From: a virus
DNA: 21,947 nucleotides
IMG/VR virus record: IMGVR_UViG_3300022756_000085
Location: 1 to 21,947 of that record
Strand: one strand, 5' to 3'
A program made the translations under genes and the position numbers. The notes beneath the pieces are model-generated. The model had not been told where the DNA came from and did no database searches. It worked only from the letters and a program-made list of their open reading frames with translations. This document shows, in pieces, positions 87 to 18,804 of the stretch (position 1 is the stretch's first letter; every line of letters starts with the position of its first letter).

Positions 87-1727
87 ATGGGTAATCCAGC
101 CGGCTTGTTCGACAAAGAGTGTGGAGTAAACCGCTCTTGGTTCGACCCTGATTTATCTAATCTCGGCTGGTGGGATCCGGAAATCGCTGCCGCCGCTGGC
201 GGGACTGTTATTAGCGCTGATGGCGCAGCCGTTGGTGCAGCGGCCGTGAGTGCCAACGGCGCGGCTATATGGGATTCAGTGGGCGCATCAGTGGGCTCCG
301 GTGTAGTCACTGGTGTCAGCGGTAAAACCGCGGGTTCAGTGGGCGCATCGGTCGGAGCCGCAACGGTTCAGGCGATCTCCTCGTCCGTGTTTGCCGGAAC
401 CGCGCGGTCTTTCACTGGTAACTATTTAGACGAAAGCTACAGCGAAGCCTTTGTAGATGGGTATGATCGTTTGAACGGGGATCCGGGAAATACCGATTCT
501 GTCGGTCAAGCTTTTGTCTCTAACGGCGGAACGTTGGATAGAGTGCAGTTTTTCGTGAAAAAGCACGGAAGCCCGACAGGGAACGCCGTCGCAAGGCTGT
601 GGCTTGTCAGCGGTACTGTTGGCGTAAACGCCAAGCCTACAGGCTCCTCGATTGCCACGTCAGATCCTTTCGACGTATCGACATTGACGACAACCGCGCA
701 ATTAATAACGCTCATGTTCTCCGGCGCGAACCGTTACCTCATGACTGCCGGAACAAGCTACGCCATCGCTCTTGAATACACTGGCGGCGACGCTGTGAAT
801 CATTATGTCGAACCAGGTTTCGACCAAGTTTTCTCTGGTCCTCCCACTCTGGAACACTCCGGCAACTGGGTGTTCAGGAATACCACGAGCGGATGGGAAG
901 GCGATCGCTTTGTTGACACGGCGTTCTACGTTTACGCAGTCGTCACTGGACCGACAGCCACAGGAATAGGCGCCGCGGTATGGGATTCGGTTGGCAACGC
1001 CGCGGGGAGTGCCGCGGTGAGCGCGAACTCCGGAGCGACCAAAGGTTCAGTCGCCAACGCCGCGGGGACCGGCACGGCGCTGGCGAACTCCGGAGCGATT
1101 GCAGGTTCAGTGGGCGCTTCTTCTGGCGTCGGTATCGCTACCGGACTCGCCAATGCGATTTGGGATGGAGTGTTCAACTCGACTGGCCTCGGTACGGCCA
1201 GCGCTAACTCGTCGGCAACATGGAATAGCGTCGGGAGTGCGGCTAGTGTCGGCGTAGCTACCGGATTCGGTAACGCGATATGGGATGGTGTCGGTAACGC
1301 TTCAGGCACGAGCACGGTCAGCGGCGACGGCGCTGCTATTACTTCTGCGACTGGCTCAGACTTCTTTGCGGCCGGGACTTCGACTGTTCAAGCGATTAGC
1401 TCGACTATCTACACCGGCACAGGGCAATCAGACGGCGCCGGTTCCGTAAATGGAGTTAGCGGTGCAACTGCGGGCTCAGTAGGCAACGCAGCCGGCATGT
1501 CGTTCGTCGTCGGTGACGGCGGAACCGGAGGCGTCGTCATCACGCCACCACCAGGCGGCGCGATGCCTTATGGTATTGAAGGTTTTTATTTTAAGGGCAA
1601 GTTCTACCCCAACAAGAAGCCCCCGCGTGAAAAAGAAAAAGAGAAACTCGTTGATCGCTTCGCTGATGCTCGCAGAGACGACAAAGAGTTGCTCGAAATA
1701 CTGGCAATGATTGCTCCCTATTTATGA
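87..1727 (+). CDS. Repeat-rich tail-fibre/appendage-like protein (546 aa)
   Basis: The likely role is a virion appendage or host-contact protein; this is inferred from composition and context. Residues 1-30 are Trp/Asp-rich (WFDPDLSNLGWWDPE). Residues 31-105 and about 290-480 are built from a 20-residue Gly/Ala/Ser repeat usually ending in WDSV, WDGV or AGSV. Between them, about residues 115-285, lies a non-repeated, aromatic-rich, beta-type domain with VGQAFVSNGGTLDRVQFFVKK and GTSYAIALEYTGGDA, reminiscent of the jelly-roll modules seen in secreted and phage surface proteins. The end is different: a Gly-rich hinge, then a charged Lys/Glu helical tail (PREKEKEKLVDRFADARRDD). The repeats suggest a beta-solenoid or trimeric stalk. 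The ATG at 87 follows a weak AGGT ribosome site. The stop TGA overlaps the next start as ATGA, suggesting coupled translation with the giant ejection-protein gene. No enzyme motif was recognised. Confidence 0.7.
   Translation: MGNPAGLFDKECGVNRSWFDPDLSNLGWWDPEIAAAAGGTVISADGAAVGAAAVSANGAAIWDSVGASVGSGVVTGVSGKTAGSVGASVGAATVQAISSSVFAGTARSFTGNYLDESYSEAFVDGYDRLNGDPGNTDSVGQAFVSNGGTLDRVQFFVKKHGSPTGNAVARLWLVSGTVGVNAKPTGSSIATSDPFDVSTLTTTAQLITLMFSGANRYLMTAGTSYAIALEYTGGDAVNHYVEPGFDQVFSGPPTLEHSGNWVFRNTTSGWEGDRFVDTAFYVYAVVTGPTATGIGAAVWDSVGNAAGSAAVSANSGATKGSVANAAGTGTALANSGAIAGSVGASSGVGIATGLANAIWDGVFNSTGLGTASANSSATWNSVGSAASVGVATGFGNAIWDGVGNASGTSTVSGDGAAITSATGSDFFAAGTSTVQAISSTIYTGTGQSDGAGSVNGVSGATAGSVGNAAGMSFVVGDGGTGGVVITPPPGGAMPYGIEGFYFKGKFYPNKKPPREKEKEKLVDRFADARRDDKELLEILAMIAPYL
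993..1352 (+). repeat. Six tandem 60-base (20-residue) repeats in the fibre-like gene
   Basis: Six in-phase units of exactly 60 bases can be laid out at 993, 1053, 1113, 1173, 1233 and 1293. Each encodes about G-N-A-A-G-x-x-x-A-x-A-N-S-x-A-x-W-D-S-V, with WDGV, WNSV, KGSV or AGSV as variants of the last positions. The first two units are still close in DNA (shared runs such as caacgccgcgggga and gcgaactccggagcga), so they were duplicated recently. Two further units are at 282-401, before the central domain, and degenerate copies follow 1352. Confidence 0.85.
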
Positions 1728-4700
1728 CACTGGCCGATTGCCTCGAAAAATCGCGATTGCCTACGAGCATCAAGGGCGCAATCAAGCTACAGGTAAAGAC
1801 GCGCGTTGATGCTGGCGGCATCAGCGAGAACGAAGCGGCACGCAGGGTTGCTCAAATTTTTCACGAAGCAGCGGTCGCCAGCCGAGACAAGATCGCGGCG
1901 GCATTAAAAGGAGGTGAGGCAGATGCCAGCGGAAAGCCAAGCACAGCGGAAGTGGGCGTTCGGAGTGAAGGGGGAGAAGTGGGCAAAGGAACACCACTTC
2001 GACAATCCGGGGAAACTCCCAGCTCGAGTACCGAAGAAAAAGCGGGCGAAGAAAAGCCCACTGGACGAAGTGGTGAACTTCAAGGGTTGAGTTTTAAGGC
2101 TGAACTCGACGACGGTTCCGGATTCGCGAGCAACGGTCTGCGGTTCGCAACGAAAGAGGAAGCTGAGAAGTCCGGTCGTGAAACTTTCAATCGCTGGATG
2201 GGCGCGAAAGAAATGCGCGTCGTTCCGAGTGACGAGCCGGTGACTCACAAGTGGGAAGGCGGCAAAAACGTTGCGATCGAGGAAGCCAAAGCGCCGGCGC
2301 TAACGCCAGAGGAACAAGCTGCCGCCGACGAGCTGTTCAGCGGTTTGTCAGCGTCCGCGGTTGAAGTTAAACAGAAACCGTTGCCCGTTGATAAAGGCGA
2401 AGCGCTATTCAAGTTTGCGCAGTTGATGACAAAAAACGGCGTCGACACGCCGGAAGCGCTCGCAGCCAAACTCCCTGAGGCCGGTCGCCCCTACGCACAG
2501 GCGATTTGGAGCACCATGGCTGCGTTTAATCCCAAGTTGCAGAAGGAGCCGGACTGGTCGACGTTGCTCAGTGGACTTGGAGCTCGCTCAGAACCCTCTG
2601 TGGTTTCAGGCACTCGACCATCTGCAGGAACAGTGGCCGGACAAACTAGCGGGACTCCTCGACCAGAACGGCCTGAAGGAGTATCTGGACAACCAAGTCG
2701 ATCAGACGTTGAGGGAAGTGGCGAAGTCGAGGGGGAAACCGGACTCGGTACTCGAACAGGTGTTGCCGACGTGGGTGTTGAACCCCAATCCGAATTACGA
2801 CCCGGAGAACCCGAAGCAACTATCGCCGGAACACCAGCAGAAGCTGAACGACTTCAAGAGCAGGATATTCGAAGCCGCCGAAGCGCAGGCTTAAATCATC
2901 GGATCCTTCCGGAACACGAGATCGCTCCCCGCGGCGAAGTAACAAAAACCCGCGCGAATATCGCGGCAATCAAGCTGCTCAAGCGTCTCGAGGCCGACGA
3001 CAAGGAAGCGACGCCCGCAGAAAAGGAAACGCTCGCGAAATACGTCGGCTGGGGCGGACTCTCGCAGTCTTTCGACCCGTTCAAGAAACTCGGTGTCCAA
3101 TTCAACGAGGAGCTAAAGTCGCTTCTCACTGAGGACGAGTATGACGCGGCGCGCCGGTCAACTCTCAACGCGCACTACACGAGCCGAGAGGCTATTGAGG
3201 CGATCTGGCAAGCGGTCGAGCGCCTGGGATTCAAGGGCGGCACGGTTGGCGAGTATGGCGCTGGCATCGGCCACTTCTTTGGCCTCATGCCCCCAGATCT
3301 CCAAAGCGAGAGCAAACTACTGGCGGTCGAGCGCGATGAACTCTCAGCGCGCATCATGTCGAAACTTTATCCAGGCGCGCGGGTTCGAGTCGGCGCATTG
3401 CAAGACCTCAAGACTAAGCCGAACTCCGTCGATCTCTTTGTTGGCAACGTGCCTTTCGATCAAAACGGACCAAGCGATAAAAACTATCCGACGCTCAACC
3501 TCCATAACTATTTTTTGGCGCGCATCCTCGACGACTTGAAACCAGGCGGAATCGCGGTCGTCATTTCGACGCACAACACGCTCGACGCGCAGCCGGTCCA
3601 ACGTGCGTATCTGGCGAGCAAAGGCGAACTGGTCGGCGCGATTCGGTTGCCAAACACCGCGTTCAAGGAAAACGCCGGCACCGAAGTCAACGCTGATATT
3701 CTCATTTTCCGTAAACCGGTAGAGCAACGGCCGGCGCCCGAGCCCTTCCTTAGCACTGTCGATATGCCGGTCTATAACGCTGACACCATAGACCTTTCGA
3801 AGAACACGCAGCCAATCACGGTCAACGAGTATTTCGGGCGGCATCCGGACATGATCTTAGGGCTGGTAAGTCGAGAAGGTTCAATGTACGGACCAGCGGA
3901 ACCGGCAATCATTCCTTTCACAGACGAAGCGGACAAGGGCGGACTCGGCACGTTGATTCGCGCCGCCGCCGACAAACTACCGCGCGAAGTTTTCGGAGCG
4001 ATCGACATGGCGCAAGAACCAGACGTCGAACACGCGGTTGCCGACGCAGCCGACAAACCCAACTCGATAATCCATAAAGACGGGAAGCTCTACATCGTCA
4101 GCGAGAGCAAGGAACTCGTGCCGGCCAGCGACGTGAACCCGCGCTTCACGGCGAAGGAAGTTAAAAAACGCGCCAAGGATTTCATCGACGTTCGCGAGAC
4201 TTACAAGCAACTCCTCGCGGCACAAACAAACCCTGAGACTGCTCAGGCCACGGTAGAAGCGCTGCGCGCCGATCTGAACAAAGCCTACGACCGCTACGTC
4301 AAGCGGCATGGCGCGCTCAATCGCTTAAAGTCGAACGTCTTTTCAGACGACCCCGAGTACGGGCTACTTCAGTCACTCGAAAACGTTGATTCGGAAGAAG
4401 TAAATGGAAAGCTCGTCAACGTCTATAACAAGGCGCCGGTATTCACGCGCCGGACACAGTTCCCTTATACCGAGCCAACCGAAGCCGAAAACGTCCGCGA
4501 CGGAATGCTGACCTCACTCGGTTACCGCGGCCGCATCGACCCGCAGTATATCGCCTCGCTGACCGGCAAGACGACCGAGGAAGTGGAGGAAGAACTGGAA
4601 AGCGAGAAACTCGCTTATCACGAACCGGACAGCGGGACGTGGCAGACCAACGATCACTACTTGAGCGGCAACGTCAGGATGAAACTCAAAGCCGCAGAGA

Positions 4701-7700
4701 AAGCCGCGGAATCAGACCCGCGCTACGATCGCAACATCGAAGCGCTCAAAGGCATCCAGCCGAAAGCGATTTCGATGGTTGAGATCAACGTCAGACTCGG
4801 CGGTGCGTGGGTGCCTCAAAAGATCGTCTCCCAATTCGGCCAGAAGCTATTCAACGCGCCCAACTTCACCGCGACGTATGTAGAGAAGGCCGACGCTTGG
4901 ATTACGAGTGGCAACGTGTACACGGTCGAAGGAACGAGCACTTACGCTGGCGGCACAATGACCGGCAACGAGTTGTTCAAGCAAGCGCTGAATCTCAAGA
5001 CCCCGCGGGTAATGGACACCATCCCGATAGGCGACGGTAAAACGAGGAAGGTGTTCAATCCGATCAAAACCGCGGCGGCGCAAGCTGCGCAGGACAAGAT
5101 CATGACCGAATTTAAGCGCTACGTCACCGAGAACGCCGATGTAGCGGAACTGCTCGAAAACGCTTACAACGAGGTATTCAACGGCCATGTTCTGCCGACC
5201 TTTGACGGCTCGCACCTCGTTCTGCCTGGTTCGAGCGCTGAAGTGACGCTTCGCCCTCACCAGAAAGACGCGATCTGGCGAATCATTCAGGACGGATACG
5301 CCATGCTCGCCCACGCAGTTGGCGCCGGGAAAACCTATGTGATGATCGGCGCTGCGATGGAAATGCGCCGGCTCGGTCTGGCGCGGAAGCCGATGTTGGT
5401 CGCCAAGAACGCGACGCTTTCGCAGTTTGCGGCGTCGTTCCGGAAGATGTATCCGAGCGCCAACGTGCTCGTCGGCAGTAAGGCCGACTTGTCGAAAGAG
5501 AAGCGCAATCAGTTTATGGCGCGCATCGCTTCCGGCGATTGGGATGCTGTCGTTGTCGCACAAAGCTCGTTCAATTTGCTGCCAAGCGACCCTGCGCGCG
5601 AAATCGCGTTCATCAGAGGGATGCTGGCCGACCTTGTAGAAGCCATTCGAGAGGCGAAGGCTAAGACTAACAGCGGTCGGGATCCAACCGTCAAAGAATT
5701 GGAAAAGGCGAAGGAGAAGCTGGAAACGCAACTGAAGGAACTGGCGAAGCGCCCCAAGGACAACACGATTACTTTCGAGCAGCTCGGCGTCGATGCGCTC
5801 TTTATCGACGAGGCGCATGACTACAAAAAACCGCCGTATGTGACCAAGCTGGACCGGGTAGGCGGACTCCAGAAGCAAATCAGCCAGCGCGCTTTTGCGC
5901 TCCTGATGAAAACGCGGTTCATCCAAGAGAAGAACAAAGGGCGCAACGTTATCTTGGCGACAGGAACCCCGGTAACAAACACGCTCGGCGAAGCGTGGCA
6001 CATGCTGCGACTCGGCGCGCCGCACCTTCTCGATGAGTATGGCGTGGACACATTCGACCGATTCGTTTCTACCTTTGCTACGATCGAGGCGATGCCAACG
6101 ACTAACGCGGTTGGCAACTGGGTAATCAGGCCGATGCTCGCGCGCTTCGTCAATGGTCCCGAACTCGTCACGATGATTCGCAGCGGTTGGGACGTGGTTA
6201 CGACCGAGGAACTGCACGATATGTTCCGCGAGCAGAAGATTCCGATTCCCGTCAAGATCGGCGGCAAGACGAGGGTGATAGCCGTAGGCATCACGCCGCC
6301 TGTGAGCGAGTACATGGATTTCCTTCACGAAGTTTTCAAGGCTTACAACGCCACGCCCAACAAGAAGCCGATCAGCGCGGTCCCGGTCCTAACCTACATG
6401 AGCGGCAGAGTCGCAGCGCTTGAACCGCGGCTCGTGAATCCCAACGCCGAAGATCATCCGAACAGCAAGGTCAACACGCTCGTTCGTGGCGTTGCCGAGG
6501 TCTATAAAGAGACGACGCCGAACAAATCGACCCAGCTCATCTTTTTCGACAATTACAAACCTTTCGACATTGGTTATCTCACTCGGTTCGCGGCCGGCGA
6601 AGGCATCACCCTCGACATGGAGGAGGAAGAACAAGGACTCGAATCTGAGGCCGCGGGCGCCTTCAACCTTTACGACGACATCAGAGAGAAGCTGATTGCC
6701 AGTGGCGTTCCGTCTGAGGAAATCGCCAACATCAACGATTACAAGACGCCGACGAAGCAGACTCAATTGTTCGATGCGTTTAACGCCGGCAAAATCCGCG
6801 TCCTGATGGGCGGCACAGACACGCTCGGTACTGGCGTCAACGTGCAGGACAAAGCCTACGCTCTTTGGCACCTCGATGCGACGTGGATGCCTTCGGGTAT
6901 CGAGCAACGTGAAGGGCGAATCGTGCGGCAGGGCAACGAGAATCCAGAAGTCGCGGTGAACAGCGTTGGCATGAAGAACACCGTCGATGCTGGCCTATAC
7001 ACAAAGCTTCTGATGAAGGCTAAATTCTTCCGGCAGGTGTTGAGCGGCAAATTCACAGGCCGCGAGTTCGACGACCCAACAGGTCCGCTCATCTTGTCTG
7101 CCGAAGAACAACAAGCGCTCTTGAGCGGCAACCCGCTCGTTCTGAAAAAGGTCGAGGCCGACAATCTCCTCCGTAATCTCCTGCTTGAAGAAGAAGGCCA
7201 CAATTCAGGCAAGGGCGAAACGGGGCGTCGGTTGCGCTCTGAAGAAGCCTATCTGAAGGACACAGAGCGCGGACTGGCGACTTACGAAGCTGGCCTGAAA
7301 GCGATGGGCGACCAGATCGACGGCGAACACTGGAAAGTTAAGATTGGCGCGCAGGAACTCAACGAGCGCAAGTCAATCGTCGCGGCGATAGATCGCATCA
7401 TTGGCGCAGCCAAGATCACGAAAGAGGTAAACTATCACGACCCTGGGGATTTGCGCAACGAAGGGCAACTCGTCGTTCAACTCACCGCCAACGGCGTAGA
7501 AGTGAAGGTGTATGGCGGTATGTATCGAGCAAGGTTCGACAGGGAAGGAGAGTTCGATAAACGGCTCGCGTCGATCATGTCGATCGACGGCCACGACATT
7601 TACGCTGGCGAAGCCAAGACGGGCAACGGTATCTTAGGAGTGCTCTCTGATCTGCCGGAAGATCTCAAAGGCCGCATCGAAGCGCGCAAGGGCAAAATCG

Positions 7701-10700
7701 TAGAAGGTAAATCGAACATCGCGAAGTTTAAGGCGCTACTCGACCAGCCATTCGAGCGAGCTGAGGAACTCGCAGCCGCGAAAGCTGAAGTCGCTCGCAT
7801 CAACGCGGAACTGACCGCCGACGACACGGCGTCAAAGACAGCAAGCGAGGAACTGTTCAACATCGGTTACACCGCGGCGCCACTCCTTTCGCGCATCGAC
7901 CAGGCTATCACCGAAGCGAAGGCCGAACTCAAAGCTATCGGCGCCGAGAGGCCACGGATGGAAACACCAGCCGGCGAAGTAAGGTCGCAAAAGATTGAGG
8001 TGCGCACCGGCGAACTTGAAGACCGCATTAAAGCGCTTGGCACGCGCCGTGCGTTCGTCGAGAAGACGCGCTACGACGCGGCGCTGCGCGGTGAAATGAC
8101 CGAGACGCCCTACAAATGGACGCCAACAGGGAAACCCGCACGGCCACTGGCGGCGTCAGTCCCGCAGACCAACTTTACGCCGGGACTCGACATCACCGAA
8201 GCCAAGCAAGGCATCCAGTCGCTATTACTGCCTTCGGCGATGAGCGCCGAGCATTTGCGCGCCGCGGAACTCGTCGGTTCCAAGCTCGGTCCCATGCACC
8301 GGCGACAGGAACAGACGCGCGCACAGTTTCAATCAGACTGGATGGCGTTCGAGAAGATGGGCGTCCATCGCGACGACGTTTCTCTTGTCAAAAATAGAGG
8401 CATCCAGTTCATGTCGGACGTGTCGCAAGGTAAGAACGTTGCGCCGGAACTCGCTAAGACCCGCGACAAAATCGAGGCGGTGTTCGCTAATCGCATGGAG
8501 CTTTTGGAGAAGGCGGATGCGCCGATGCAGCAAGTCCGCGAAAACTACTTTCCCGGCATGTGGACCACGGAATCACGGCGCGCTTTCAATCAGGCGATGG
8601 AAGATGCAGTCGAGAAGGGAGTCATCGACGCCGACACGTTCAACGTGAACAGCGCGACCCAACAGCAGGAAACTTGGATCCGCGAGCGCACGATCGAACT
8701 CATGGACAAAGGCGCGGGCAGCGACAAAGACGCCCTGCGGTATGTCTCACGGAAGCCACTTAAAGGACCGGAAACGTACAAGAAACAAAAAGTGTTCGAC
8801 GACATCATGACCGCGGTGCGCTTCGGCCTCATCCCGATCTCGAACAACCCGATTGATCTGGTCGCGCTCAAGCTGGCCGAAATCGACAGGTCGATCATGG
8901 CTAATCAAGTATTCCAGGCGCTTCGCGACAAGAAGCAACTGAAGACAATCAAGCCGTCCGAGAAAACGCCAGACGGTTGGGTGCCGGTACTCGACAAATA
9001 CGGCACGGTTTACGGACCGCCGACGATAGGCGAGGGCGAAGACGAGCAATACGTCGGGCTGCGCATCCTCGGCCGGCGCGTTGTCACGGCGCCGGTAGGC
9101 GACATTCTCAATAACTACCTTTCATCGAGTCTCTATAACAACCGCTACTTCGGGAAGGTGTATTCCGGCTGGATGGGCATGGCGAACCTCCTCAACCAGA
9201 CCCAGCTCGGCGTGGGAAGCGCCTTCCATGCGGGTTTCACTACGGCAGAAGCCCAGATCTCCGCAACGGCGAACCTCATCAAAGACGTTTACGGCCTCCT
9301 TCGTGGCAATCGTTCGCTCACGAACCTCATCGCTTCGACCAAATCCGTCGCGACCGCGACTGTCGAGACGGCAATGACTGGCGACAAAGTGCTCAACGCA
9401 TGGCGGAATCCAGACGGCTCAATCGACCCGCGCATCTTGCAAGTTGTCCGCGCCGCGGAACTGGCAGGCGCAGGGTTCCGGCTTGAGCAAGGGCTACGCA
9501 CCGACCAGAGCAGCAAGTTTCTGAGTGACTGGCTTAACGGCCACAGGCTGCGAGCTGCGCGTCGGTCGCCGGTGGCGTTTATCGAAATGCTGGCGAAGCC
9601 GATCATGGATTTGCTCGTGCCGCGACAGAAGGCTGGCGTGTTCGCGCATCTGGTCTGGCGCATCATCGAACAGAATCCAGACAAACCGCTCGACGCTTTA
9701 ACCTCGCAATTCCGCGCGGCATGGAACCGTGTTGACGCGCGCCTGGGACAGGTGCGGTACGATCGGCTGTTTATCAACAACGTCGCGAAGAACGTCATTC
9801 AGGGGAGTATCCGAGCTCCGGGCTGGTCCGGTGGAACGATTGCCGAGCTGGGCGGCTCGTTCAAGGACGCCTACGGCTTCTTTGAGGAGTTCGCGAAAAC
9901 CGGCAAACTGCCAGCAGACATTCCCGATCGCGTCGCCTACGTGATTGCACTACTCATCACTGTGGCGGTTATCAACGCGGTTCTGACGTTCGCGTTTACC
10001 GGCGAAGCGCCGAAGGGACTCGACTACTGGGCGTTTCGAACTGGCGGCAAAGACTTGCAAGGGAACCAAGAGCGCTTTGTGCTGCCGACGTACGTCAAAG
10101 ACATCATGGCCTACGCGAAAGCGCCGCTGACGACGCTCTCGCACAAGATGCACCCGATTATTTCCGTGTTCGGCGATCTGATTCGCAACGCTGACTACTA
10201 CGGCATCCAGATTCGTGACACCGACGCGAATGTAGCGAAACAGGCGATGTCGATTGTCGGCTACGTCGCCAAGTCGTTCACTCCATTCTGGATTCGCGGT
10301 GCGGCTAAGACCACGAAGGAACACGGTGGGTTCACAACTAAAGCGGTCCTGCCGTTAATCGGAATCATGCCGGCAACTCGCCAGATCACGCAGACCCGCG
10401 CTCAGGCCATCGCAGCCAAGATCAACCAGGCTACGCTCCCGGCCGCGCCGAAAACTCAGAGGCAAGAGGACCGGCGCTTAGAGAAGTCCGCGTTCACTTC
10501 ACAGATCAGGAGAGGCCAAACGCCAAACTTTTCCAAGGCGCTCTCGCGAGGCACAATCAAGGGGACCGACATCAAGGAACTCTATAAGCGCGCCACGCTT
10601 TCCCCTCTAGGAGTGTCGATCGACCACATGACTTTGGAAAACGCCGAGAAGGTCTACGCGGCCGCGTCGCCGCTCGAACGACAACAATTAACTGGAATAA

Positions 10701-10762
10701 TGGCGAGAAAACGTGCAAATAGCCTCAACCGAAAAGGTCGAACGATGTTTACAGGGTTCTAA
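1724..10762 (+). CDS. Giant polyvalent ejection/antirestriction protein: N6-adenine methyltransferase + SF2 helicase + LPD38-like C-terminus (3012 aa)
   Basis: Known family behaviour: such DarB-like polyvalent proteins are packaged in the virion, enter the cell with the DNA and protect it from restriction. Domains in order: residues 1-66, a small helical domain; 67-122, a low-complexity linker; 122-282, a module starting SFKAELDDGSGF; 283-391, a second low-complexity linker. Then comes the methyltransferase: YVGWGGL at 440-446, motif I EYGAGIG at 510-516, and motif IV NVPF at 575-578 (Pro-to-Val variant of NPPF). The SNF2-type helicase follows: Walker A GAGKT at 1200-1204, DEAH at 1362-1365, ATGTP at 1412-1416, and motif VI QREGRIVRQG at 1728-1737. 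About 1790-2140 is coiled coil. From about 2150 the helix-rich end resembles large polyvalent domain LPD38, with one hydrophobic segment near 2737-2758. The ATG overlaps the previous stop (ATGA). Both linkers coincide with small genes in the +1 frame. No ATG, GTG or TTG occurs in frame between 2895 and the first methylase motif at 3041, so the enzyme must be translated through the overlap. Confidence 0.9.
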   Translation: MTLADCLEKSRLPTSIKGAIKLQVKTRVDAGGISENEAARRVAQIFHEAAVASRDKIAAALKGGEADASGKPSTAEVGVRSEGGEVGKGTPLRQSGETPSSSTEEKAGEEKPTGRSGELQGLSFKAELDDGSGFASNGLRFATKEEAEKSGRETFNRWMGAKEMRVVPSDEPVTHKWEGGKNVAIEEAKAPALTPEEQAAADELFSGLSASAVEVKQKPLPVDKGEALFKFAQLMTKNGVDTPEALAAKLPEAGRPYAQAIWSTMAAFNPKLQKEPDWSTLLSGLGARSEPSVVSGTRPSAGTVAGQTSGTPRPERPEGVSGQPSRSDVEGSGEVEGETGLGTRTGVADVGVEPQSELRPGEPEATIAGTPAEAERLQEQDIRSRRSAGLNHRILPEHEIAPRGEVTKTRANIAAIKLLKRLEADDKEATPAEKETLAKYVGWGGLSQSFDPFKKLGVQFNEELKSLLTEDEYDAARRSTLNAHYTSREAIEAIWQAVERLGFKGGTVGEYGAGIGHFFGLMPPDLQSESKLLAVERDELSARIMSKLYPGARVRVGALQDLKTKPNSVDLFVGNVPFDQNGPSDKNYPTLNLHNYFLARILDDLKPGGIAVVISTHNTLDAQPVQRAYLASKGELVGAIRLPNTAFKENAGTEVNADILIFRKPVEQRPAPEPFLSTVDMPVYNADTIDLSKNTQPITVNEYFGRHPDMILGLVSREGSMYGPAEPAIIPFTDEADKGGLGTLIRAAADKLPREVFGAIDMAQEPDVEHAVADAADKPNSIIHKDGKLYIVSESKELVPASDVNPRFTAKEVKKRAKDFIDVRETYKQLLAAQTNPETAQATVEALRADLNKAYDRYVKRHGALNRLKSNVFSDDPEYGLLQSLENVDSEEVNGKLVNVYNKAPVFTRRTQFPYTEPTEAENVRDGMLTSLGYRGRIDPQYIASLTGKTTEEVEEELESEKLAYHEPDSGTWQTNDHYLSGNVRMKLKAAEKAAESDPRYDRNIEALKGIQPKAISMVEINVRLGGAWVPQKIVSQFGQKLFNAPNFTATYVEKADAWITSGNVYTVEGTSTYAGGTMTGNELFKQALNLKTPRVMDTIPIGDGKTRKVFNPIKTAAAQAAQDKIMTEFKRYVTENADVAELLENAYNEVFNGHVLPTFDGSHLVLPGSSAEVTLRPHQKDAIWRIIQDGYAMLAHAVGAGKTYVMIGAAMEMRRLGLARKPMLVAKNATLSQFAASFRKMYPSANVLVGSKADLSKEKRNQFMARIASGDWDAVVVAQSSFNLLPSDPAREIAFIRGMLADLVEAIREAKAKTNSGRDPTVKELEKAKEKLETQLKELAKRPKDNTITFEQLGVDALFIDEAHDYKKPPYVTKLDRVGGLQKQISQRAFALLMKTRFIQEKNKGRNVILATGTPVTNTLGEAWHMLRLGAPHLLDEYGVDTFDRFVSTFATIEAMPTTNAVGNWVIRPMLARFVNGPELVTMIRSGWDVVTTEELHDMFREQKIPIPVKIGGKTRVIAVGITPPVSEYMDFLHEVFKAYNATPNKKPISAVPVLTYMSGRVAALEPRLVNPNAEDHPNSKVNTLVRGVAEVYKETTPNKSTQLIFFDNYKPFDIGYLTRFAAGEGITLDMEEEEQGLESEAAGAFNLYDDIREKLIASGVPSEEIANINDYKTPTKQTQLFDAFNAGKIRVLMGGTDTLGTGVNVQDKAYALWHLDATWMPSGIEQREGRIVRQGNENPEVAVNSVGMKNTVDAGLYTKLLMKAKFFRQVLSGKFTGREFDDPTGPLILSAEEQQALLSGNPLVLKKVEADNLLRNLLLEEEGHNSGKGETGRRLRSEEAYLKDTERGLATYEAGLKAMGDQIDGEHWKVKIGAQELNERKSIVAAIDRIIGAAKITKEVNYHDPGDLRNEGQLVVQLTANGVEVKVYGGMYRARFDREGEFDKRLASIMSIDGHDIYAGEAKTGNGILGVLSDLPEDLKGRIEARKGKIVEGKSNIAKFKALLDQPFERAEELAAAKAEVARINAELTADDTASKTASEELFNIGYTAAPLLSRIDQAITEAKAELKAIGAERPRMETPAGEVRSQKIEVRTGELEDRIKALGTRRAFVEKTRYDAALRGEMTETPYKWTPTGKPARPLAASVPQTNFTPGLDITEAKQGIQSLLLPSAMSAEHLRAAELVGSKLGPMHRRQEQTRAQFQSDWMAFEKMGVHRDDVSLVKNRGIQFMSDVSQGKNVAPELAKTRDKIEAVFANRMELLEKADAPMQQVRENYFPGMWTTESRRAFNQAMEDAVEKGVIDADTFNVNSATQQQETWIRERTIELMDKGAGSDKDALRYVSRKPLKGPETYKKQKVFDDIMTAVRFGLIPISNNPIDLVALKLAEIDRSIMANQVFQALRDKKQLKTIKPSEKTPDGWVPVLDKYGTVYGPPTIGEGEDEQYVGLRILGRRVVTAPVGDILNNYLSSSLYNNRYFGKVYSGWMGMANLLNQTQLGVGSAFHAGFTTAEAQISATANLIKDVYGLLRGNRSLTNLIASTKSVATATVETAMTGDKVLNAWRNPDGSIDPRILQVVRAAELAGAGFRLEQGLRTDQSSKFLSDWLNGHRLRAARRSPVAFIEMLAKPIMDLLVPRQKAGVFAHLVWRIIEQNPDKPLDALTSQFRAAWNRVDARLGQVRYDRLFINNVAKNVIQGSIRAPGWSGGTIAELGGSFKDAYGFFEEFAKTGKLPADIPDRVAYVIALLITVAVINAVLTFAFTGEAPKGLDYWAFRTGGKDLQGNQERFVLPTYVKDIMAYAKAPLTTLSHKMHPIISVFGDLIRNADYYGIQIRDTDANVAKQAMSIVGYVAKSFTPFWIRGAAKTTKEHGGFTTKAVLPLIGIMPATRQITQTRAQAIAAKINQATLPAAPKTQRQEDRRLEKSAFTSQIRRGQTPNFSKALSRGTIKGTDIKELYKRATLSPLGVSIDHMTLENAEKVYAAASPLERQQLTGIMARKRANSLNRKGRTMFTGF
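1908..1917 (+). promoter_or_regulatory. Perfect Shine-Dalgarno site for nested small gene 1
   Basis: AAGGAGGTGA matches the 16S anti-Shine-Dalgarno end over ten bases. It lies five bases before ATG 1923, which is not in the giant gene's frame. It is the strongest ribosome site I see in the window, and it sits inside a coding region where the host gene has no need of it. This supports a separately translated nested gene. Confidence 0.8.
1923..2090 (+). CDS. Nested small basic phage protein in the +1 frame of the giant gene (55 aa)
   Basis: The ATG has a ten-base perfect ribosome site at optimal spacing. The product begins MPAESQAQRKWAFGVKG, continues with EKWAKEHHFDNPGKLP and ends in a Lys/Arg-rich stretch and a short acidic end. 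This looks like a family of small phage proteins starting MPAxSxAQRxWA that I recall from phage genomes near structural genes; their function is unknown to me. The balance of Trp, Phe, His and charged residues is that of a real protein, whereas the giant frame over the same bases is Gly/Ser/Glu/Thr/Pro filler. By hand count 37 of 56 codons end in G or C in this frame against 23 of 56 in the giant frame. The stop TGA (2088-2090) overlaps an in-frame TTG of the giant gene (2087-2089). It could be an accessory virion or DNA-binding protein, but that is a guess. Confidence 0.75.
   Translation: MPAESQAQRKWAFGVKGEKWAKEHHFDNPGKLPARVPKKKRAKKSPLDEVVNFKG
2087..2089 (+). other. Possible coupled restart codon (TTG) within the giant gene
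   Basis: TTG 2087-2089 is in the giant frame (residue 122) and overlaps the nested gene's TGA as TTGA, a classic layout for termination-reinitiation. The sequence after it, SFKAELDDGSGFASNGLRF and then ATKEEAEKSGRETFNRWM, reads like a protein N-terminus and resembles small stand-alone phage proteins I recall. A product from here would lack the first 121 residues but keep every enzymatic domain. No Shine-Dalgarno is evident apart from the coupling. Confidence 0.35.
2571..2894 (+). CDS. Nested helical protein in the +1 frame of the giant gene (107 aa)
   Basis: This frame runs from GTG 2571 to TAA 2892-2894 and encodes a well-balanced protein: NPLWFQALDHLQEQWPDKLA, then GLLDQNGLKEYLDNQVDQTL, then a Pro/Asn-rich stretch (LPTWVLNPNPNYDPENP) and a helical end (SPEHQQKLNDFKSRIFEAAE). 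The first part recalls the L-x-E-x-x-P ... LL-x-x-G-x-L-x-x-YL pattern of TnpV-like small proteins; that likeness is tentative and implies no transposon. By hand count 82 of 108 codons end in G/C in this frame but only 32 of 108 in the giant frame, where the product is a Gly/Ser/Pro/Glu linker. The weakness is the start: AAGGAG at 2543-2548 is 22 bases from the GTG, too far for normal initiation. Alternatives are a coupled start, another near-cognate codon, or a +1 frameshift from the giant frame just before 2571, which would append this protein to the preceding module. Confidence 0.6.
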   Translation: MDLELAQNPLWFQALDHLQEQWPDKLAGLLDQNGLKEYLDNQVDQTLREVAKSRGKPDSVLEQVLPTWVLNPNPNYDPENPKQLSPEHQQKLNDFKSRIFEAAEAQA

Positions 10763-10765
10763 TCC

Positions 10766-13075
10766 ATGACCAGCCTCGCCCCTCAACAAGCTGGCGATAC
10801 GGGACCGATTCCCCCAGCGATCACGCCGAACGAGGACCAGAGCGGCGAGATAAACCCACTCCAGCGCCACGCCGCAGCGCCGAAGCTCCAGACCAACCTG
10901 CAATTAACGCCGACGCAACTCGACAACCTCACGCAGCGCGCGCTCGACCGGATAGACGAGCTCCGCGGCGAAATGGGATTGCTCGATCGCGGGCAAGTCG
11001 ATGACGGAAGCTGGATGGGGAAGCGCCAGCAAAATCAAGCGCAATACGACAATGACTGGCAATACCGCGCGGCACTGGGCATCTTCAAGTTCTCGAATTT
11101 CTCGGTCAACATTTCCAAGCGGTACTCGCGGTTGATCTCAGCCAAGGCGAAAGACGACCTTGTTGGGACAGACCCGTTCTTCGCTGCGATGCCGGAGACG
11201 CACGGCGACCCTGAGACAGCCAAAGAAGTCGAGTGGTTCCTACAGGAGAAGATCAGACAGTCGAACGCGAAGAAAGCTTTCGGTATTGGCATCAAGACGG
11301 CGCTTATCCGCAACGAGTGCGTGATGAAGCCAACCTACATCAGCAATGTCAGTAAGTTCCGCGGGCCGGCGCGTGTCGCCGTTGGTCCGAACATGTACGA
11401 AGCCGCGGACGGCATTCATTACATCGCGCAGGGCGAGCCGATCATGACGCCGCGGGGAAACTACATCTACGAACTCGACGACTTTTTCCCGGATCCTAAC
11501 GTCGAAGGCATCGTTCGACTGAAAAAGGAGCCAATGGTGCAGTTTCGTAATGCGCCGGTGTTCGCCGACTTCGATGATCTCGACCAGACGATGATTCATC
11601 AGGAAGGACTCGACTTGAGGGGCCTCGACTACCGCGATTTCCTTTGCCCGCTCAACGTCGCCACTGTTCATGAAGCCGACATCAACGTTCATCTGTTTGA
11701 TGAGCAATGGGAGAAGCTGGTTTACACCTACGGCATTTTCGAGGTAAGCCAGGGCTACGTCACTCAGCCCTACATGAGCGGCGAAAAATCCGCGAAGTCG
11801 GCGCAAGGCGAGCAAGAGGGTATCACCAGTAAGATTCTGAAGATCGTCAATTGCGCCGACGTTTACATGCGCTGCGACGCCGACGACGACGGCGTTGAAG
11901 AAGAAATCTGGATGATCATAGACCTCGTGGCGAAAAAGGCCATTTGGTATGACTACCTCGGCGCCCACTTGAAGAAACGGCCTTTCGAAGTGATTCCAGG
12001 CATCGAGCAAGTCGCTAATCGCTGGTACGGCGTGGGCGTGTTCGAAATGCTCGATCACAAGCAGACCTACATCGACACCCAGTTCAACCGCGTCAATTTC
12101 AAAAGCTCGAAAAACTCGTCCGTTCGGTTCCGGGTAAAGAACGCGGTTGACCAGTGGAAAGCAGATCAGGAAGTCGTTTTCGGTGACGATCAGATTTTCG
12201 ACATAAGCGATCAGCGTTACAACGCGCAGAATCCGCCGCTATTTCAGGTTCAACTGACCGAGATCGACGAACACGCGATGCGGCTGATTGAACTGATGCT
12301 ACAGGCTTCCTCAAGCGAGATTGGCATTGCTGGTCCTAATGACGCAGCGATGGCCGGACTCGACACGACCAAGCTGGCCGAAGGCATCAAAGCGATGGAG
12401 CGCACCGGAAACGTGCTAATGAAGGAGACAGAGGGAAGTCACAACGAAGCGATCAACGCCCTTCTCGTTCAATGCATGGACATCGTACTCGAGCACATGG
12501 ACCAAGATGAGTTGATTTTCCATCCGGACTCCGGCTCGCTGATTCAATTGAACCGCGACGAGATCAGGGCAATGACGAAGAACGTCCGGTTGCTACTGAC
12601 CCGCAGCCGCTCGACCGAGACAATCGAAACCGCGCGCATGGTTGTCCAGCTTTGCAGGGAGTACTACGAAGCGCTGAATCCAGAGGAGCAAAACCTACTG
12701 CGCGACGAATATCTCCGGCAGTTGCGAGCGCTTGAGGTGCAGGACGCCAATGAACTCCTCCGTGAAGTGTCAGAGGAGGAGGTTGCCGCGTGGAAAAAAG
12801 AGCAGCAACAAGCCGCCAAGCTCCCGCCGAAAACGTCGATCGCCACGAAGTACACCGATCTCGAGCGCCCCGAACAGGTTCAGGTGCTCACCCGCGAAGG
12901 TATTCAGCCAGCGCAGGTAGGCCCCGTAACGTCACATCAGGCACAGGAAGTCGCTCAGACCGGCATGGAGGCCAACGCGAAAGAACAAGCGAAAGTCACC
13001 GCCGCACCCGCGCTAGAGAAAGCAAAAGCACAGTATGGACCAAAGCCAGCCGCCAAGCCCGCTACCAAGTCTTAA
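10766..13075 (+). CDS. Portal protein (769 aa)
   Basis: The portal forms the dodecameric ring at the capsid vertex through which DNA is packaged and ejected. Supporting features are the size (large podovirus portals are about 700-770 residues) and the position among ejection, scaffold and capsid genes. Internal blocks also fit: an N-terminal helical part ending YSRLISAKAKDDLVGTDPFF, a middle block RWYGVGVFEMLDHKQTYIDT near residues 419-438 resembling the clip/stem approach of P22-like portals, and SSEIGIAGPNDAAMAGLDTT further on. The C-terminus from about residue 650 is helical and then a Lys/Ala/Pro/Gln-rich tail, as expected for a barrel plus disordered end. The start ATG lies three bases after the giant gene's stop with only a weak ribosome site, so coupling is likely. 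The last 41 bases overlap the next gene in another frame. Confidence 0.88.
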   Translation: MTSLAPQQAGDTGPIPPAITPNEDQSGEINPLQRHAAAPKLQTNLQLTPTQLDNLTQRALDRIDELRGEMGLLDRGQVDDGSWMGKRQQNQAQYDNDWQYRAALGIFKFSNFSVNISKRYSRLISAKAKDDLVGTDPFFAAMPETHGDPETAKEVEWFLQEKIRQSNAKKAFGIGIKTALIRNECVMKPTYISNVSKFRGPARVAVGPNMYEAADGIHYIAQGEPIMTPRGNYIYELDDFFPDPNVEGIVRLKKEPMVQFRNAPVFADFDDLDQTMIHQEGLDLRGLDYRDFLCPLNVATVHEADINVHLFDEQWEKLVYTYGIFEVSQGYVTQPYMSGEKSAKSAQGEQEGITSKILKIVNCADVYMRCDADDDGVEEEIWMIIDLVAKKAIWYDYLGAHLKKRPFEVIPGIEQVANRWYGVGVFEMLDHKQTYIDTQFNRVNFKSSKNSSVRFRVKNAVDQWKADQEVVFGDDQIFDISDQRYNAQNPPLFQVQLTEIDEHAMRLIELMLQASSSEIGIAGPNDAAMAGLDTTKLAEGIKAMERTGNVLMKETEGSHNEAINALLVQCMDIVLEHMDQDELIFHPDSGSLIQLNRDEIRAMTKNVRLLLTRSRSTETIETARMVVQLCREYYEALNPEEQNLLRDEYLRQLRALEVQDANELLREVSEEEVAAWKKEQQQAAKLPPKTSIATKYTDLERPEQVQVLTREGIQPAQVGPVTSHQAQEVAQTGMEANAKEQAKVTAAPALEKAKAQYGPKPAAKPATKS

Positions 13076-17166: not shown

Positions 17167-18804
17167 ATGAAAAAATTACTTCGTAGTCGCTCCTATCGCT
17201 ATGCGATTGGGAGCATCCATTTGCTGACCGCGATTGCCGTTCTGTGCGCGACCCAAAGCGCACTGGCGTTCTTCGCTGTGTCGGCTGTCAACCCGCTGAT
17301 CACCTATCAGCTGGGCGTCAGTTATTCCAAGGTCAACGTCGAGACCGTCGCCAACATGGTGGCGATGACAGCAAAAGCCCAAGAAGAACTGTGGGTAAAA
17401 CGAGTTCTGATGGGCGCCGACCGAGACAACATCTTCTCAGACAACATGATTGGCGGTCCCGGTAGCGGGAAGCCGTTCATTCAGTATGACGATCTGACGA
17501 AGGTGGACGGCAACACGATTAACGTGCCTGTCGTCGCGCCGCTCGGCGGACCGGGAACCCAAGGTGAGGGTGACCGAATCGGTAATGAAGAAAAAATGCG
17601 AATCGGCAGCTTTCCGTGCAAAATCGGAAGGTTCTGGTTTGGCGTTGGCATCACCGACGTAGCGCAAGAGGAAACCGTTGTTGGTTCTCAGTTTGATAAC
17701 CTGGTGAACATGCTGCTTCGGCAGCGTCTCGGCAGGAAACTCACCGAGGACATGATGATGAACCTCAAAGCGAACGCTGCTGGCAACAACACGATTCGCC
17801 CGAACAACAAGGGGACTCGTGAAGCGCTGAAAAGCGCCGACGTGGTCGCAACAACGACCATCACCAAAGCCGGTCTGGTTCTGTCCTCGCTTGGCGGCAA
17901 ACCCGTTAAGACGATCAAGAACAAGGCGGGCGGCGACGTTGAGCAGTTCTTGTTTTTCTCAAGCCAATGGGGAACACAGGCGCTGGCGAGTGAAACCGCG
18001 TATTTGCAGGCGTTACAGTACGCAGCGGAGCGCGGCGTGCAGAATCAAATCTTCCGAGGCGACTTCGTCGATTGGAACGGCCACGGTATTTACCGCTGGT
18101 ACATCCGCGATCACGACGCCTTCGGTCCTGTAGGTTCTGTCATTCTGCCTCGCGCGTTTCTCGGCACAGCAATCCCGGCCGACAACACCGCTTACCCGAT
18201 TACCGGTGGTGGTAGTGCGCTCGGCGCGGCTGCGTTGCCCGCACCTAACTACTTCGAGGCTTTCTCGAACGCTCCGTGGACATTCACGAACGGCGTTGCG
18301 ATCGCAGCGGACGTAACCACGGTGCGCTACGTGTTGATTCAGAATTTGACTGGCGCGAACGCCGGCAAGTTCGGCTTCTACTCGTACCAAGTGAACACCG
18401 GCTTGGTGTTGACGATGGTGAGCCGGCTACGAGCTGCGGCAGCGGGTGCTGCTGTGACGACACTCGGCGGCGTGACATGGAACGTTGCGCCCTGGTTGGT
18501 TGCGTTCTTGACGGATTCGCATCCGATCGGCTCGCTCATCATCGAGACGAACAGTTTCGGCGTGCCGTTCGGCTACAGCTTCATGCTTGGAGAAATGGCC
18601 GGTATCTGCGGCTATGGCTCTTTGAAGGGGCGTAGCGCGAAAGGCGCGAGAACAGAGGAACACCGCAATCACGGAATGGACCACGGTATTGGTATCGAGG
18701 CTTGCTTCGGTTCCGCACCGGTGCAAAGGACGGATGGCGTCTTCCCTAACTACTGTTTGGTCGAGCATACCGTCCCGATTGATGGAATGCCTGTGATTAC
18801 CTAA
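17167..18804 (+). CDS. Major capsid protein, N4-gp56 type, with signal-peptide-like N-terminus (545 aa)
   Basis: This is the shell protein. Characteristic blocks include QEELWVKRVLMGADRDNIF, KPFIQYDDLTKVDGNTINVP, EEKMRIGSFPCKIGRFWFGV, LLRQRLGRKLTEDMMM and, near the end, EACFGSAPVQRTDGVFPNY; these match the N4-gp56/DUF4043 capsid family as I know it. The oddity is residues 1-34: MKKLLRSRSYRY is basic, about 13-27 are hydrophobic, and S-A32-L33-A34 gives an AxA cleavage site, together a textbook Sec signal peptide. ATG 17167 has a good AAAGGA site four to five bases upstream. An in-frame GTG at 17278 would give MSAVNPLITYQLG, the start I would expect for the family, but I see no ribosome site before it. 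Either two forms are made, or the extension is a cleaved leader. Confidence 0.88.
   Translation: MKKLLRSRSYRYAIGSIHLLTAIAVLCATQSALAFFAVSAVNPLITYQLGVSYSKVNVETVANMVAMTAKAQEELWVKRVLMGADRDNIFSDNMIGGPGSGKPFIQYDDLTKVDGNTINVPVVAPLGGPGTQGEGDRIGNEEKMRIGSFPCKIGRFWFGVGITDVAQEETVVGSQFDNLVNMLLRQRLGRKLTEDMMMNLKANAAGNNTIRPNNKGTREALKSADVVATTTITKAGLVLSSLGGKPVKTIKNKAGGDVEQFLFFSSQWGTQALASETAYLQALQYAAERGVQNQIFRGDFVDWNGHGIYRWYIRDHDAFGPVGSVILPRAFLGTAIPADNTAYPITGGGSALGAAALPAPNYFEAFSNAPWTFTNGVAIAADVTTVRYVLIQNLTGANAGKFGFYSYQVNTGLVLTMVSRLRAAAAGAAVTTLGGVTWNVAPWLVAFLTDSHPIGSLIIETNSFGVPFGYSFMLGEMAGICGYGSLKGRSAKGARTEEHRNHGMDHGIGIEACFGSAPVQRTDGVFPNYCLVEHTVPIDGMPVIT

Follow-up and report, generated by a model that had tools for sequence, protein, structure and literature searches.

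The stretch 1923-2090 (+) of an IMG/VR virus contig of 21,947 bases, hereafter the window, is very probably a real, independently initiated gene lying inside a giant polyvalent gene, in its +1 frame, a reading that extends with the same confidence to the explanation given below as a whole and is made without translation or proteomic data. The small gene opens with ATG 1923, runs for 55 codons to TGA 2088-2090, encodes the 55-aa protein MPAESQAQRKWAFGVKGEKWAKEHHFDNPGKLPARVPKKKRAKKSPLDEVVNFKG and lies fully within the giant ORF 1724-10762. It is preceded by the Shine-Dalgarno (SD) sequence AAGGAGGTGA (1908-1917, +), with a gap of 5 bases to the ATG; all these coordinates agree with those of the initial annotation, whose higher third-position G/C in the small frame was also recomputed with identical values (37/56 versus 23/56 in the giant frame). 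Over the same bases (1922-2089, +), the translation of the giant frame, DASGKPSTAEVGVRSEGGEVGKGTPLRQSGETPSSSTEEKAGEEKPTGRSGELQGL, is, as had been stated, a low-complexity linker; it is hydrophilic and rich in Gly, Glu, Ser, Pro and Thr, and the synonymous and nonsynonymous counts bear on this reading as well.

Alternative-frame ORFs of at least 55 codons abound in this GC-rich giant, 13 of them in the +1 frame, so that the frame could be open and SD-like by accident, with only the giant being coded. However, the nested gene is the only alternative-frame ORF in the giant that combines an ATG, a 6-mer SD and at least 40 codons, it ranks first of the 53 alternative-frame ORFs under the codon model, and it is one of only two in the window (the other being 2571-2894) that beat the giant frame. 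Together with these signals, the selection on the small frame and the stand-alone homologues described below leave a chance ORF next to no credibility; specifically, the homologues and the substitution pattern refute it.

The giant host gene (1724-10762, +), whose start codon ATG 1724 shares bases with the stop of the gene before it (ATGA), encodes a 3012-aa polyvalent protein with a DarB-like methylase-helicase core. It is matched by phrog_10089 (DarB-like antirestriction, E 8.5e-255 over 2900-5500), by the DNA methyltransferase phrog_11801 (E 1.9e-109) and, in its helicase domains, by the ResIII and Helicase_C profiles, and it qualifies as a DarB-like polyvalent protein in being multidomain and having a methylase fused to an SF2 helicase. 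The small gene, in turn, qualifies as embedded in that the giant frame is uninterrupted and is coding to either side of it and the small frame is under selection; production of both proteins is not shown. The TTGA overlap at 2087-2090 and the following domain, SFKAELDDGSGF..., which resembles a stand-alone start, would suit a giant that is not one protein, its frame being merely open across separate small genes and the true giant starting downstream at TTG 2087. This is improbable in view of a giant frame without a stop from 1724 to 10762, of the coding score of 1724-1920 in that frame, of the presence of the SFKAELDDGSGF domain inside an even larger ORF in L012 and L013, and of the 12 other lineages in which large ORFs, in the same phase, likewise continue open to either side of the small gene. 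One continuous giant that contains the small gene is thus the preferred reading. Directly after the giant lies a gene (10766-13075, +) for a 769-aa protein that is portal-like by position and size only, has no convincing Pfam or PHROG family and is 64% identical to the product of the gene after the L019 giant. The major capsid protein gene (17167-18804, +; PF13252 E 1.3e-8, phrog_334 E 1.9e-16) puts the locus in a virion module, an assignment by neighbourhood only, since packaging or injection of the giant is not shown.

The small protein family and selection on the two frames

A protein search with the 55-aa product recovered 10 relatives in viral contigs, and profile searches of viral contigs raised this number to more than 100, giving 100 distinct small genes in total, 87 of which are stand-alone. 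Hence, the stand-alone phage homologues expected for the product were obtained, and the view that proteins of the MPAxSxAQRxWA type exist as ordinary stand-alone genes is borne out by these 87 distinct copies. The relatives in viral contigs are 43-89% identical to the window protein, family members mostly have 39-68 residues, and the family is defined here as the MPAxSxAQRxW..HHFDNxGxLP small phage protein family. In the first alignment, the 14 invariant residues are M1, P2, A3, S5, Q6, Q8, G17, W20, H24, H25, D27, N28, L32 and P33, and the window protein carries all 14, which makes it a member; its own start with a ribosome-binding site and its protein-level selection complete membership at the level of sequence, translation not being shown. 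Features of the protein are an N-terminal helix, the nearly invariant motif HHFDN-G-LP and a tail rich in Lys and Arg, and AlphaFold2 predicts one helix pair (6-16, 18-23) with a mean pLDDT of 73.5.

No Pfam, PHROG or NCBIfam profile matches the small protein, a tblastn search of isolate phages found no match to it (the DarB core, used as a control, matched 102 phage records), and no match was found in prokaryote genomes; therefore, all members known from this analysis come from uncultured viruses. The best hits of a BFVD structure search were 44-aa uncharacterised phage proteins with 36-40% identity, none of them significant. MPAxSxAQ small phage proteins such as DUF3008/DUF6496, which we take to be short with a similar N-terminal motif, served as a lead only: none of 11 members of the present family matched a Pfam family of the DUF3008/DUF6496 type at E<=1, and, in contrast to these proteins, the HHFDN-G-LP motif appears particular to the family defined here.

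The homologues also bear on a programmed frameshift, by which the first 66 residues of the giant would be joined to the small frame through a +1 shift at AAAAGGAGG, without separate initiation. Internal SD-like sequences can stimulate frameshifting, and the phase is indeed +1. Yet the stand-alone homologues start at the same Met with the same MPAxS N-terminus, and the sequence before the ATG is unrelated among the nested giants, making such a shift very hard to credit. Instead, it is inferred that ribosomes would start at ATG 1923 on the giant mRNA and that the small protein would be made separately from the giant.

The window and two further contigs, L168 and L019, permit a comparison of the two frames over the same bases. 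Among these three, identity over 54 codons is 70-87% for the small protein and 46-56% for the giant reading; the changed codons (synonymous/nonsynonymous) number 15/16, 13/14 and 15/7 in the small frame and 1/29, 2/29 and 2/24 in the giant frame. Considering all pairs with 80-99% protein identity, the differences distribute over the three small-codon positions as 0.23/0.17/0.60 for nested and 0.21/0.18/0.61 for stand-alone pairs. Nested and stand-alone copies thus experience the same selection at the protein level, and the likeness of the two profiles implies that nesting has not visibly altered the constraint on the small protein. The codon-phase and synonymous-rate analysis thus places the small frame under selection, with 60% versus 61% of changes at the third position and nearly all giant changes nonsynonymous. 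In the C-terminal part of the giant, compared between the window and L019, the third position of the giant itself is the most variable, as in an ordinary gene. Stops in the small frame of relatives that retain the giant frame would have argued against the gene; in the relatives, the small frame is retained irrespective of whether the giant frame is open, and in 56 of the 87 stand-alone copies the giant phase is interrupted. None of the refuting conditions of the initial annotation that could be computed went against it.

Recurrence and origin of the nesting

The nesting recurs. In 13 lineages (the window and 12 others), a large ORF of 745-5078 aa, open on both sides, encloses the entire small gene, and in all 13 the small frame is the +1 frame of the giant. 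Each nested record holds exactly one copy of the small gene, the nested one being the only one found there (13/13). Neither the giant protein nor the position within it is constant: with residues numbered from the beginning of the open frame or of the fetched stretch, the nested start falls at giant residue 66 in the window, 1712 in L168, 1999 in L019, 501 in L035 and 207-494 in the others. A 6-mer SD precedes 7 of the 13 nested copies versus 5 of 415 other +1-frame ATGs in the giants (Fisher p 2.6e-9), and any SD core precedes 10/13 versus 44/415 (p 1e-7); a recognisable SD is absent in 3/13 nested copies. Under the codon model, the small ORF ranks first or second in 12 of the 13 giants, and the small frame does not score above the giant frame in L087, L098, L124 and L162.

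Of the two partners, the small gene predates the giant linker, which is the new reading, although the tree does not fix whether the gene was captured or escaped. Accordingly, the initial annotation had the right direction in proposing that the giant overprinted the small gene; the case is not unique, being accompanied by the 12 further nested lineages. The window, L168 and L019 form a clade (99/98), in which DNA identity is 80-85% inside the nested gene and 22-33% outside it, the flanks being unrelated right up to the gene. A tree of only 52 columns requires 8 changes between nested and stand-alone states and rejects one clade of nested copies (p-AU 0.0012). Because the nested copies are not one clade and their flanking DNA is unrelated, nesting arose or moved several times, and repeated nesting probably proceeded via in-frame module exchange. 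Such exchange is directly visible in L172 and L173, from two samples, which are 99-100% identical through the N-terminal part of the giant and the nested gene and after it (from about 5050) switch abruptly and in frame to unrelated giant domains, the nested gene remaining stationary beside the switch; this is recent domain swapping in a polyvalent gene. No empty-linker relative of a nested giant was found, the only new relative, L173, also having the nested gene.

A single ancestral nesting, from which all 13 copies would derive with the giant domains reshuffled around one nested pair, would account for the same phase in 13/13 copies despite the two alternative phases being about equally often open in stand-alone copies (35/87 and 31/87), for the homologous flanks of several nested giants and for the L172/L173 exchange next to a conserved nested gene. 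Against it stand the 8 changes and the rejected clade, with the reservation imposed by the few columns, and the unrelated flanks of the window, L168 and L019; it is therefore considered unlikely, yet it stays in contention. Under the favoured reading of repeated nesting, the near equality of the open phases means that stops alone do not explain the constant phase. Its probability is 5e-5 if the 13 cases are independent, about 0.002 with 8 events and about 0.02 with 5, and the true number of events is below 13 because several nested giants share flanks. Either shared descent within modules or selection for the phase explains the constancy. The phase used by the nested giants reads as an Ala/Gln/Gly/Glu-rich linker, and the other phase is Arg/Ser-rich (21% Arg).

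The mechanism that we propose is that giant genes may grow and shuffle through in-frame exchange in their linkers, and that an existing small gene in or beside a linker would be taken into the giant ORF. The captured gene would be tolerated because its giant-phase reading is a benign disordered linker, and it might then be carried along as the neighbouring giant domains are swapped. Whether this extends to a general rule, namely that polyvalent giants carry complete small genes in their linkers, that a head-module gene entered them several times, always in the linker-reading phase and moving with in-frame modules, and that some giants hold more than one passenger, seems to us evenly poised.

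Relation to known architectures

The closest known architecture is the lambda Rz/Rz1 pair, in which a short phage gene likewise lies entirely within a longer gene, in the +1 frame. Rz and Rz1 serve a single function together, whereas here the host is a giant multidomain protein and the small gene recurs in different giants at different positions. Two-component spanin genes are also overlapped or separated in other phages (PMC6139136), and o-spanins occupy both the +1 and the -1 frame, while only one phase is seen in the present family. Similarly, in the overprinting of viruses and bacteria, reviewed in PMC8227390, one stretch of bases encodes two proteins in different frames; classically a new ORF arises in an old gene, whereas here the small gene came first and it is the long frame that acquired a new, weakly constrained linker. 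The giant is one of the DarB-type polyvalent proteins (PMC5512222), sharing their multidomain make-up, methylase-helicase core and place among virion genes, and is set apart by the complete genes inside its linkers. Iyer et al. 2017 (PMC5512222) also point to small ORFs near a large polyvalent gene as possible cassettes, and a term search of the text of that paper did not bring up overlapping genes. Open-access papers, within a partial coverage of the literature, yielded no description of a gene nested in a polyvalent gene.

Nested phage genes are already known, usually as one functional pair; what is new is one conserved family that recurs in different giants in a fixed phase, an old small gene being read through. 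Its stand-alone relatives make the selection test clean, and the family provides a natural series for how two genes come to share bases, why one phase is chosen and to what extent pipelines that forbid long overlaps under-count phage genes. Moreover, at the level of DNA, the linkers of polyvalent proteins are more than filler. The nested gene will probably escape standard annotation; if giants are carriers of small genes, annotation overlooks a whole class of phage genes.

Putative function, further candidates and neighbouring features

Stand-alone copies often lie beside portal, head maturation protease and scaffold genes, further neighbours being an SU10-type adaptor and terminase, and in L106 the copy directly follows a DarB-like gene. 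The nested loci yielded none of these neighbour families, which means that their phages are not merely the same phages with a longer giant. The N-terminal helix, the HHFDN-G-LP motif and the Lys/Arg-rich tail make a role in head assembly or DNA contact likely, and a minor head-assembly or DNA-binding protein is our tentative best guess. It is inferred, not demonstrated, and rests on neighbourhood and composition because there is no profile family and no isolate-phage match.

The other alternative-frame ORF of the window that beats the giant frame (2571-2894, +) has 107 aa, a GTG start and the same +1 phase; it lies over the second linker of the giant and scores as coding under the codon model, which the giant frame there does not. 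It is a candidate, either a second nested gene with a weak start (GTG) or a frameshifted former domain, and no convincing homologues were found outside its own contig group. Separately, L014 was discarded as a relative of this 107-aa ORF, the 28% identity being to a different structural gene and largely due to a shared PNPNYDPEN stretch. In L168, a 109-aa ORF (10995-11321, +) in the +1 phase of the 5078-aa giant has no relatives outside its own contig group and remains a candidate; it is the strongest alternative ORF of any giant examined (codon model d=0.46), far above the giant frame.

Some features of the giants and their surroundings are recorded for their own sake. The giant-frame domain at 2087-2290 of the window, SFKAELDDGSGFASNGLRFATKEEAEK..., shares 73% identity with a portion of the L012/L013 giant; starting at a TTG that overlaps the TGA of the small gene, it looks like an absorbed small gene. 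Upstream of the giant, 87-1727 (+) encodes a 546-aa Gly/Ala/Ser-rich protein with repeated GSVGNAAG-like units, without a Pfam or a significant PHROG family, which is perhaps a tail fibre-like protein. Lastly, the L035 giant (6177-12098, +) combines a stretch resembling an integrase (phrog_1, E 2.5e-15) with a ParB-like one (E 2e-4), unusual partners within one large ORF.
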